From an uncultured Sphingomonadaceae bacterium (GTDB taxonomy: Bacteria > Pseudomonadota > Alphaproteobacteria > Sphingomonadales > Sphingomonadaceae), in the NCBI GenBank assembly GCA_947499255.1, contig CANMNF010000003.1:248001-312000 (forward strand): DNA of 64,000 nt, in the 5' to 3' direction. Of this stretch, positions 59,261 to 63,048 are shown in pieces. The position numbers and the translations under genes were made by a program. How positions within the stretch are numbered: the stretch's first letter is position 1; each line of letters begins with the position of its first letter. Under the pieces are notes generated by a model. That model was given only the letters and a program-made list of their open reading frames with translations, was not told the origin of the DNA and searched no databases.

Positions 59261-59914
59261 TTAGTCCGTCTGTTTAGCTATGACGGCAGGCAACAGCTCA
59301 GCACGTTTTCCTTTCCGCCTGCCTTTGCGGTAACGGCTTTGGTAATCCCGACGTTGTCTAGTCACCTCATACAATACAATCCCAGAGGATGTTCCGAGGT
59401 TAAGGCTTTCGATCATTCCAAACATCGGTATGGCGATGCAGGCATCGCTACGTTCAACTGCGCAGTCGCTAATCCCGCGCTTCTCATTTCCAAACCATAC
59501 GGCCAGCTTCGTGTGTTTGGTAAAGTTTGCTTCGTGAAGCCAGTGGTTTTCCTGGCCCTTTACGTGAGGGGAAGTCACGACTGAGTGAAAGTTGTTCTTC
59601 TCCAAATGATCGAAGCAATCATCGGTGCTGTCGAACCTCTTCACAAAGCTCCATTTCACCGCTGAAACAGAGGTTCGTGCCAATGACTTTCGTTCACGCA
59701 TCTCTTGCCAATCGTCAGGCAGAGCCTTTCTAGGGTCGACGACATAAACCTTCTCGACCCCCAGCGCATTCACGTTGCGAATTACTGTACCGATATTTCG
59801 AATATCTGCGGGACTTTCGATTACAGCGATCAGATTTTTGCAAATGAACGGCTTGATTTCTTCAGCCCGTTTGCGAACGGTCGCCTTAGACTTTTTCGGT
59901 TCTACAGTTTCCAT
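59261..59914 (-). CDS. SPOUT-class RNA methyltransferase (TrmH/SpoU family)
   Basis: A 217-residue 2'-O-methyltransferase. The trefoil-knot block is clear: GNEKRGISDCAVERSD and PMFGMIESLNLGTSSGIVLYEVTRQRRDY, with NIGTVIRNVNALGVEKVYVVDPR as the first conserved strand. A basic N terminus is RNA-binding. Target tRNA or rRNA position is unknown. Two 60-base blocks I counted are 45 percent G+C, far below the flanking genes, which suggests recent transfer. It stands alone between mtfA and valS. Confidence 0.85.
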   Translation of the reverse strand: METVEPKKSKATVRKRAEEIKPFICKNLIAVIESPADIRNIGTVIRNVNALGVEKVYVVDPRKALPDDWQEMRERKSLARTSVSAVKWSFVKRFDSTDDCFDHLEKNNFHSVVTSPHVKGQENHWLHEANFTKHTKLAVWFGNEKRGISDCAVERSDACIAIPMFGMIESLNLGTSSGIVLYEVTRQRRDYQSRYRKGRRKGKRAELLPAVIAKQTD

Positions 59915-60006: not shown

Positions 60007-63000
60007 CTACCCCAACCGCGCCAAAGCCGCTTCTAACCGGGCCGCTTCCGCTTCATGCCGCGCATGATCGGCGCGCGCTTTCTCGACCGCTTCGGGCTTC
60101 GCGTTTTCGACGAATTTGGCATTGCCAAGGCGGCCGCTGAGCGACTTTGCTTCTTTTTGCGAAGCGCCAAGGGCCTTTTCCAGACGCGCTTTTTCCGCAG
60201 CGATGTCCACCACGCCTTCCAAGGGCACGACAAACACGTCCTCACCCGCCACGATCTGCATAGCTGCACCAGACGGCGGCTCGGCAAATTCAACCGGGGT
60301 CAGGCGCGCAAGGCGTTCGATGGCGGCGCTGCTGCGCTCCACCACGCCTTTCGCCAGATCGCTTGGGGCAGGGCAGTATGCGGCCAGTTTTTCACCCGGC
60401 GAGATGCCCAATTCGTTGCGCGCGCTGCGTGTCGCGGTGGTCAGGTCAATCACCCAGTCAATCGCATCGGTCGCCTGTTTGGAGACTTCAGCGCGCGGAT
60501 TGGGCCATTGCGCGGTGACAAGCTCGTATGACCGTTCGCCTTGTGCGTGCCACAGCTCTTCGGTGATGAAAGGCATGAAGGGGTGCAGCATGACGAGGAT
60601 CTGATCGAGCGCCCACCCGGCAACTTCGCGCGTTTCGGCAGCGGGATCGAAATCCCCCTCGCGCTTACGGGAGGGGTCAGGGGTGGGCGCGGCCTGGTCG
60701 GTGGGTTCTGGCCCACCCCCGGCCCCTCCCGTAAGCGGGAGGGGAGACAAGACCGGCTTGATCAGCTCCAGATACCAATCGCAAAACCGGTCCCACACAA
60801 AGTGATAGATCGTGTTTGCCGCTGCATCAAAGCGCAGATCGGCCATCGCGGCCTCCAACGCTTCAACCGTTTGCTGCACTTCGCCAATGATCCATTGGTT
60901 CGCGGCAAGGCGGGCTTGCGGTGCTTTGATAGAAGTGCTGGCACCAATGCCATTGCCTTGGCAAAAACGCGTGGCATTCCAGAGCTTTGTCGCGAAATTG
61001 CGATAGCCTTTGACCCGCTCATCATCCATCTTGATGTCGCGGCCCTGGCTTTCCATTGCGGCCATGAAGAAGCGCAAAGCATCCGCGCCATATTCATCAA
61101 TCAGGCCGAGCGGATCGACCACATTGCCTTTGGATTTGGACATTTTCTGCCCATCGGCGGCGCGCACAAGGCCATGCAGATAGAGCTTTGGCCACGGAGC
61201 CTCGCCCATATTGTAATACCCGGCCATCATCATGCGGGCATCCCAGAAGAACAGGATGTCAAAGCCGGAGATCAGCAGGTTGTTGGGGTAGTGCTTGGCG
61301 AGCAGGCTCCCGGTGCCCACCCCGCCGCGACTAGGCTCGCCTTCGGCTCCCCAAGTCTCACTCCCCTCCCGCAGACGGGAGGGGTTGGGGGTGGGTGCGT
61401 CTTCGGGCCAACCCAGCGTGGCAAAAGGCCACAGCGCGGAGGAGAACCATGTGTCGAGGACGTCTGGGTCGCGCCAAATTGTCGGACAAACTGGTAGCTT
61501 GTCAGCGGAGGATTGAAGCAACTCATGAAGCATAGCATCTTGATTTTGACCTAGCCTGACCTCGACGCCGTAATATGCTGACGCAAGCTGACAGGCTTCT
61601 TCCTCATTGTGAGCGACAAAGACCTTGTGTTCACCCTCCATAGAAAGGCTGACGGTCGTGGCATCCTTCTTCACCGGCCCATACCAAGCCGGGATCCGAT
61701 GTCCCCACCACAATTGGCGCGACACACACCAAGGCTGGATATTTTCCATCCAGTTGAAAAAGGTTTTTTCCCACGTTTTGGGGACAATTTCGATTTCGCC
61801 GGACTTTACCGCTGCAATGGGTTTTTTCGCCAATTCCTCAGCATTGACATACCATTGGTCGGTCAACCACGGTTCGATCACCACGCCGCCGCGATCACCA
61901 AAAGGCGTGGCGATGGTGCGCGGTTCGGCGTCTAACTCAATCTCTTCGCCTTTTTTGGTTTTGGTGAGATGCGGGATCAGGTGGCCGCTTTGTTTGAGGC
62001 GCTGGATCACCAATTCGCGCGCGCCATCTTTGCCGTCTTGCTTAAAGCGGTGCAGGCCGATGAACTCCTCGGGCACCAGGCCATCCGCAGTCTGGCAAAC
62101 ATTCGCTTCGGTATCGAGCATATTGAACATATCGGCAGGGGCAATCCCTGCGCGCTTGCCCACATCGAAATCGTTGAAATCGTGGCCCGGCGTGATTTTT
62201 ACAGCGCCTGATCCAAGCTCAGGATCGGCATGTTCGTCCGCCACAATGGGAACGCGCCGCCCGGTGATGGGCAGCTCGACAAATTTGCCCACAACACTGG
62301 CATAGCGTTCATCCGATGGGTGCACCGCCACTGCCATATCAGCCAGCATCGTTTCAGGACGCGTGGTCGCAACTTCAATGTAATCGCGGCCATTATCGAG
62401 CGTCACGGCGTTTCCGTTTTCATCGGCGGCGAGCGGATATTTGAAATGCCAGAAATGCCCGGCGATATTTTGCGTCTCAACTTCCAGATCGGAAATCGCG
62501 GTTTTCAGCTTTGGATCCCAGTTCACCAGCCGCTTGTCGCGGTAAATCAGGCCATCGTTGTGAAGGTCCACAAACACCTTGAGCACGGCTTTGGTGAAGT
62601 GCTCGTCCATGGTGAATTGTTCGCGGCTCCAGTCCATCGAACAGCCCAAGCGGCGCAGTTGCCGCGTGATTGTGCCGCCGCTTTCCTCTTTCCATTCCCA
62701 GACTTTTTTAACGAAGTCTTCGCGGCTGTAATTGGTGCGCTTGTCTTGCCGTTCTTCCAGCTGGCGTTCGACCACCATCTGCGTCGCAATGCCTGCGTGA
62801 TCGGTGCCCACCACCCACAAAGCATCCTTGCCGCGCAGCCGTTCATACCGGATTACGATGTCCTGCAGGGTGTTGTCCAACGCATGGCCGATATGCAGCG
62901 ATCCGGTGACGTTGGGCGGCGGGTTCACGATGGTGAAGGGTTCCGCATCGGGCCGTTCGGGCCGGAAACAGCCATTCTCTTCCCAATGGGCATACCATTT

Positions 63001-63048
63001 TGTTTCAATGGCGGCAGGATCAAACTTGGTAGGCAATTCTTGGGGCAT
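60007..63048 (-). CDS. valS: Valine--tRNA ligase with two in-frame palindromic insertions
   Basis: A 1013-residue class I synthetase that charges tRNA-Val. HIGH is at residues 52-55 ([10 protein letters not shown]), KMSKS at about 635-639 ([13 protein letters not shown]). [17 protein letters not shown] and the editing domain are conserved, and a C-terminal coiled coil closes it. Two insertions lengthen it: about residues 555-579 ([14 protein letters not shown], element 61313-61383) between TLGWPED and [10 protein letters not shown], and about 768-798 ([10 protein letters not shown], element 60655-60744) between LELIKPVL and [10 protein letters not shown]. Both join standard segments directly, so the reading frame and enzyme are probably intact. 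Confidence 0.95.
60655..60744. repeat. Palindromic element inside valS, copy with 34-base arms
   Basis: Arms 60655-60688 and 60711-60744 are complementary except at three positions, around a 22-base loop. The core is the string CTTACGGGAGGGG on one arm and CCCCTCCCGTAAG on the other. The element stays in frame within valS, with no stop codon. Confidence 0.95.
61313..61383 (-). repeat. Dispersed palindrome-bearing element, copy inside valS
   Basis: On the minus strand it reads CTCCCGTCTGCGGGAGGGG, then GAGACTTGGGGAGCCGAAGG, then CTAGTCGCGGCGGGG, which is the string of the intergenic copy at 38665-38732 with a few substitutions. It encodes [20 protein letters not shown] in valS without a frame break. 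The small hairpin CCCCTCCCG/CGGGAGGGG at its start also appears in the 60655-60744 element. Confidence 0.9.

Follow-up and report, generated by a model that had tools for sequence, protein, structure and literature searches.

In-frame palindromic elements in valS of a Sphingomonadaceae bacterium and their possible partnership with DUF559 genes

Palindromic elements described elsewhere

Excerpts of two papers on Rickettsia describe palindromic elements of ~100–150 bp which lie in frame in unrelated genes, belong to several families and are sometimes found close together in one gene; no mover is named in these excerpts (PMC10969869, PMC3767692). REPs inside uvrA and inside tRNA synthetase genes are described in the available part of a 2013 survey, with the synthetase cases extending to ‘E. 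lithoralis’ and S. alaskensis; in this survey the CGTC-tagged REPs are dispersed palindromes, some of them in genes, for which no dedicated transposase was found (PMC3733652). As palindromes in frame are known from Rickettsia, and REPs are known from uvrA and tRNA synthetase genes, the in-gene insertions which we report here are of a known kind.

The initial annotation of our locus had likened its palindromes to the Rickettsia elements. This analogy is fair as to kind: palindromes are found in frame in protein genes (here valS and uvrA) and are absent from orthologues. However, the likeness is one of description, the hosts differ, and our material includes insert-free sites between close species and a palindrome-flanked nuclease gene. 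REP/REPIN systems with a RAYT (REPtrons), as outlined in the accessible part of PMC3116915, share with our elements an inverted pair of short palindromes as the unit and a single-copy enzyme gene near its own palindromes, but here the enzyme is a predicted DUF559 nuclease rather than an HUH tyrosine transposase and there is no GTAG or CGTC tag. The CGTC-tagged REPs are likewise dispersed palindromes with some copies in genes, unlike our P1 family in bearing the CGTC tag. As in MITEs, a short element shares its inverted arms with a gene-bearing unit, the enzyme of which would be a candidate mobiliser. No target-site duplication was readable, the gene unit is present at 1–2 copies per genome and the enzyme is no known transposase. 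The DUF559 proteins match I-Bth0305I and Vsr in profile or fold, the fold match to Vsr being weak, but differ from them in that their genes are flanked by inverted palindromes.

What is new, as far as literature searches show, is the P1 family and its ends, the repeated occupation of identical linkers by unrelated families within one genus and, above all, the association with DUF559. No report of DUF559 as a partner of palindromic elements was found among the open-licence PMC papers listed, judged by title and abstract. The Caulobacter DUF559 protein VsrA is described as a predicted Vsr-like nuclease, which causes an SOS response when a methyltransferase is missing, in the part of PMC12907096 available to us, and the string “palindrom” is absent from that text.

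P1 elements in valS and other genes

The window (the whole stretch of 64,000 nucleotides which we analysed, from an uncultured Sphingomonadaceae bacterium) contains the valyl-tRNA synthetase gene valS at 60007..63048 on the minus strand, identified as an open reading frame of 1013 codons with a match to the ValRS equivalog NF004349 covering residues 7–1008. The initial annotation had placed two palindromes in frame inside this gene, which was borne out by the open reading frame, the NF004349 match, the arms and the folding; the frame is open across both elements. Element A (60655..60744; 90 bp, encoding 31 residues) lies at site A and is a full element of the P1 family with two inverted arms: a type II arm at 60655..60688, which reads CCCCTGACCCC on the minus strand, and a type I arm at 60711..60744, the minus strand of which encodes 11 residues. 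The arms are 34 nt long, 91% complementary and separated by a spacer of 22 nt. Folded as single-stranded DNA (60653–60746, plus strand), element A had an energy of −41.9 kcal/mol (z = −7.5) and 0 of 200 shuffles were as good. Element B (about 61313..61399) lies at site B and is a hybrid of one P1 arm and another palindromic module; it has a P1 hairpin core with a perfect 9-bp stem at 61363..61384 and, over 35 nt, is 89% complementary to one arm of element A. Its second half is a different palindromic module which, by eye, is also present in a copy at C2:837 kb of the same genome, and a hybrid resembling element B was recognised by eye in the genome G053. The fold of element B is weaker than that of element A (z = −2.8, 2 of 200 shuffles as good). 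The limits originally given for element A stood, but the end given for element B (61383) did not, as pairing extends out to about 61399. The 22-nt core pattern gave 3 matches in the window at ≤ 3 mismatches, versus 0.04 expected. An AlphaFold2 model of the synthetase was poor (mean pLDDT 62), with both inserts as low-confidence coil; it is the variation in linker length among genomes which suggests that the inserts may be surface loops. Beside valS, an ORF at 59261–59914 of the window lies between valS and a 302-aa ORF; the former is presumably an SpoU/TrmH-type RNA methyltransferase and the latter a zinc peptidase.

We compared valS among 40 genomes of the same genus, in 36 of which both sites were readable (G006, G023, G047 and G051 were left out because the gene was missing or incomplete). 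At site B, 26 of the 36 genomes had a 7-residue linker and 10 had an insert, and at site A there were 18 residues in 28 genomes, 10 residues in two and an insert in six, so that 30 of the 36 were insert-free. The absence of the inserts from close relatives, which had been predicted, was therefore found at both sites, and sister species differed. It should be noted that in relatives the conserved blocks are not strictly contiguous, as the initial annotation had supposed they normally were: the empty site B is a linker of seven residues (TLGWP-7-KHYP) and the insert-free site A mostly has 18. The two genomes with 10 residues at site A are neighbours (G004 and G016; L017, L028), indicating that this linker tolerates shortening too, and in G009 the site A insert sits a few codons further on than in the other five genomes.

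Four sequence families were distinguished by eye at the valS sites: P1, with the peptide PLPLAGGAGGGP...PTPNPSRKREG and with hybrids in G000 (the genome of the window) and G053; P2, with the peptide PPxSGEGD...PADGxPP; PEPVEG/STSSG; and PLAGEEG...PLPQGEG. The occupants were scattered over a ValRS tree from which columns with more than 10% gaps had been excluded, with a minimum of 10 changes at site B and 6 at site A, and the inserts differed between the sister genomes G053/G054, G021/G020, G022/G049 and G000/G052. Insert-free relatives, occupants scattered over the tree, four families and the use of the same linkers together indicate that the valS segments are recurrent insertions rather than ancestral protein sequence. 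Taken alone, the insertion of mobile palindromes in frame into valS is close to certain. The initial annotation had noted neither that unrelated palindromes occupy these linkers nor the association with DUF559 nuclease genes. No target-site duplication was readable in valS, where the flanks of filled alleles did not align exactly with empty ones, and the P1-filled site A alleles seem to be missing some target codons.

When element A was used as a BLAST query against the window's own genome, ten matches were obtained, distributed over six loci: two in valS, one in frame in uvrA, one downstream of an rpoB-like ORF, one between two ORFs and one cluster adjoining a DUF559 gene. A half-element pattern was found in 26 of the 40 same-genus genomes, with 1 to 67 hits each, and a reversed control pattern gave 0 hits in all 40. 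The existence of an element family in this genome, proposed from the window alone, thus held for the genome itself and for its relatives. Full P1 elements (30 copies, of which 26 are from G010) are inverted palindrome pairs of 83–108 bp; 24 combine one type I arm (GGGGCYGGGGG...) with one type II arm (GGGGYYAGGGG...), none has two type II arms and six are unclear. In the 24 oriented elements CT precedes the element in all cases, with mostly GA and often CT after it; there is little conservation of the flanks beyond this, so target specificity looks low. Neither a GTAG nor a CGTC tag was present in the consensus of these 24 elements.

The in-frame copy in uvrA of the window's own genome (G000:C1:1053497-1056475; L012, L363) is a third in-frame P1 insert. 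We examined 30 uvrA loci, seven of which had no match to the extraction pattern; among the 23 which could be read, the linker contained an insert in seven genomes (four P1 and three other, with families assigned by eye here as in valS) and was 27–32 residues long in the remaining 16. The uvrA linker is a second recurrent insertion site. A PEPVEG/STSSG-like palindrome family was seen in the same linkers, in valS of G009, G021, G043 and G048 and in uvrA of G008. Seven of the 26 full P1 elements of G010 interrupt genes with conserved sequence to either side of the element, two of them in valS and one each in uvrA, glyS, metH, uup and a biotin carboxylase gene. This is a lower bound, as families were sought at 11 of the 23 other G010 loci. 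A further in-gene case is carA of G015. In-gene status was established by comparison with orthologues for valS and uvrA and by flanking domain matches only for glyS, metH, uup, biotin carboxylase and carA. The elements in uup and biotin carboxylase have lengths not divisible by three, meaning that further indels must preserve the frame. Repeated insertion by unrelated palindromes into linkers of ValRS and UvrA indicates how mobile DNA adds segments to essential proteins.

DUF559 genes and the palindromes that flank them

P1 arms were also found in inverted orientation on either side of a DUF559 gene, and the window's own genome has such a gene beside P1 (120.4 bits against a cut-off of 20.6). 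In the 40 genus genomes there were 97 matches to PF04480 (DUF559), for 70 of which we examined the loci, the 27 others having E values of 2e−16 or weaker; two truncated loci were unscored and 67 were scored. To detect inverted repeats, we compared the 250 bp preceding the domain with the 300 bp following it, and counted a score of 14 or more as a pass. A flanking inverted repeat was found at 43 of 53 catalytic-type loci, with 10 of the 53 scoring < 14, and at 1 of 14 loci of a conserved low-scoring class (the exception being L143). None of 133 control windows placed elsewhere in these loci, clear of the gene, passed, nor did any of 120 random windows of valS loci, the maximum score of which was 13. 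Among named Sphingomonadales, 70 of 80 loci (the best 80 of 168) passed, compared to 0 of 126 controls; setting aside the 14 loci shared with the genus set leaves 66, of which 58 passed. In a sample of 150 Pseudomonadota genomes there were 66 strong DUF559 matches in 29 genomes, and 17 of 28 loci from outside the genus, some of which may overlap with the named loci, passed (controls: 0 of 56). Over the genus, named and phylum sets together, 0 of 315 control windows passed.

The arms can lie very close to the gene. At compact loci (e.g. L202, L208 and L225) the gap between arm and matched DUF559 region is ~10 bp on the upstream side and ~5 bp on the downstream side, and at 25 of the 80 named loci the second arm contains the stop codon of DUF559. 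Both arms could be typed at 46 named loci, where the upstream/downstream types were I/II at 23, II/II at 10, II/I at 7 and I/I at 6; the idea of a parent unit in which the arm types are fixed was rejected, as only 23 of the 46 loci fit. By genomic place, 36 of the 80 named loci are beside nrdB, 3 are at a marC/LON/trx locus and 41 are elsewhere. P1-type DUF559 genes were found in 17 of the 40 genus genomes at 1–2 per genome; given these low numbers and the often constant place, the gene-bearing unit does not seem to jump now. When the whole of one DUF559 locus, L092, was used as a DNA query for an empty site, the matches were scattered and none was clean among the matches listed. Downstream of nrdB (30 loci, 1500 bp each) nine loci had DUF559 and the other 21 contained only a single palindrome core, in G007, which is no clear remnant of a DUF559 deletion; in G010 and G050 the DUF559 gene lies beyond 1500 bp from nrdB. 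For the PEPVEG/STSSG family, no DUF559 partner was identified in a brief look, and a search for PEPVEG-type palindromes at nine DUF559 loci that lack a strong flanking repeat gave one match, beside L121.

DUF559 is predicted to be a Vsr/EDxHD-type nuclease, similar to I-Bth0305I in sequence and modelled fold. A profile of 11 DUF559 sequences matched the PDB entries 3hrl (E = 2.7e−35) and 3r3p, the homing endonuclease I-Bth0305I (E = 1.3e−5), and these two were also matched in Foldseek by a structural model with a pLDDT of 86 (3r3p: E = 1.6e−4). Foldseek matches to PvuRts1I and Vsr (1vsr, E = 0.075) were weaker, and mitoribosomal proteins were also among the hits. The name EDxHD for the I-Bth0305I-type family follows the literature. 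All 55 catalytic-type proteins retained the E, G and H of the presumed active site, whether or not their genes had a strong flanking repeat. All 14 members of the low-scoring class (L100–L104, L134–L138, L140, L141, L143 and L144) had lost these residues, and 13 of the 14 had no flanking inverted repeat; this class is perhaps a domesticated non-nuclease.

Palindrome type largely follows the DUF559 clade. When eight palindrome types, P1–P8, were placed on a DUF559 tree (46 labelled rows), we counted 9 changes, the least possible being 7, versus 22–27 in ten shuffles. These labels were given by eye, and L091, L093 and L114, which scored < 14 or were unscored, were assigned to P1 on the basis of cores close by; the tree has few columns and many weak forks, and orthologues cluster in any case. 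At one locus, L080, P1 arms accompany a DUF559 that falls outside the P1 clade. P1 half-hits were more numerous in the 17 genomes with a P1-type DUF559 gene than in the other 23 (P = 0.0009, a value which ignores relatedness). Comparing presence of the gene with any P1 hit in tree-independent pairs, 6–7 pairs were in the same direction, none in the opposite direction and 4–5 showed no difference (P = 0.016, range 0.016–0.031); at a threshold of 5 or more P1 copies the tree-paired test was not significant (P = 0.06). Of the 23 genomes that lack a P1-type gene, 10 nevertheless contained P1 half-hits, including 28 in G022.

Possible routes of movement

On comparison of these sequences, we give a modest preference to the reading that the palindromes of valS are non-autonomous REPIN/MITE-like elements which would be moved by a cognate DUF559 nuclease of Vsr/EDxHD type. 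The DUF559 protein would recognise its own arms, probably extruded as hairpins, and cut them, and this cut would initiate the copying of the element or its transfer. The arms beside the DUF559 gene may be the source of the short elements; with mixed arm types around these genes, the descent of short I/II elements from gene units stays a proposal. Linkers of valS which tolerate added sequence have received in-frame P1 copies, including the P1 hybrid which forms element B, and copies within genes would survive only where the frame was kept and the linker tolerated about 30 extra residues, which could account for the apparent hot spots. P1 copies in genomes without the gene are the main weakness of the view of DUF559 as a mobiliser; such copies may be relics or may have been moved by a related enzyme. 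The broader claim, that DUF559 proteins are the movers of a Pseudomonadota-wide class of palindromic elements, paired by clade with their hairpin arms and dispersing, independently of RAYT, tiny non-autonomous copies which alter protein genes in frame, is tentative, and we regard its chances as roughly balanced.

Other explanations were weighed against this one. Old lineage-specific loops of ValRS, palindromic by chance, would fit the similar inserts at the same places in some relatives, but with insert-free sites in most close relatives (26 of 36 at site B, 30 at site A), differences between sisters, occupants drawn from different families of palindromes and further copies of this DNA both in intergenic positions and within other genes, an ancestral loop was rejected as extremely improbable. 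Mobilisation by RAYT, as for REP/REPIN elements, draws on the inverted palindrome pairs of 83–108 bp, a layout which is REPIN-like by the description in the accessible part of PMC3116915, and on Y1 transposase matches in 3 of the 40 genus genomes, two of which (G009 and G050) have P1 copies. Against this, a PF01797 search for the Y1 domain found no RAYT-type transposase in the window's genome and none in 37 of the 40 genomes, including the P1-rich G010 and G022, and the element ends read CT...GA(CT) rather than GTAG or CGTC; we regard this route as very unlikely.

The two remaining alternatives accept the DUF559 association and read it differently. DUF559 could be a homing-type or cargo gene which invaded existing palindromes, with the palindromes moved by some other host process, as might be suggested by its match to I-Bth0305I, by the occurrence of palindromes without the gene and by the mixed arm types around it. 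However, dozens of near-identical palindromes would predict a multi-copy gene, yet the P1-type gene is present once or twice per genome, and palindrome type largely tracks the DUF559 clade; this makes invasion of existing palindromes unlikely, though it retains some weight. Somewhat less probable again is a role of DUF559 as a Vsr-like nuclease of repair or maintenance which uses the palindromes as regulatory or protected sites, so that the association would be functional without being one of mobility. A role of Caulobacter VsrA, itself a DUF559 protein, in mismatch repair is predicted in the available part of PMC12907096, but clade-specific flanking palindromes and a dispersal correlated with the gene are not readily explained in this way.

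DUF559 with its matching palindromes, largely clade-specific across a phylum, provides a concrete enzyme to test. Were mobilisation by DUF559 true, it would give a role to a common domain of unclear function and would represent a second, RAYT-independent route to REP mobility, with a candidate mover for those REP and Rickettsia-type families which have no known transposase. It was also observed that in G022 two DUF559 matches with very different scores lie side by side (G022:C2:1014725-1015790; L117, L142).
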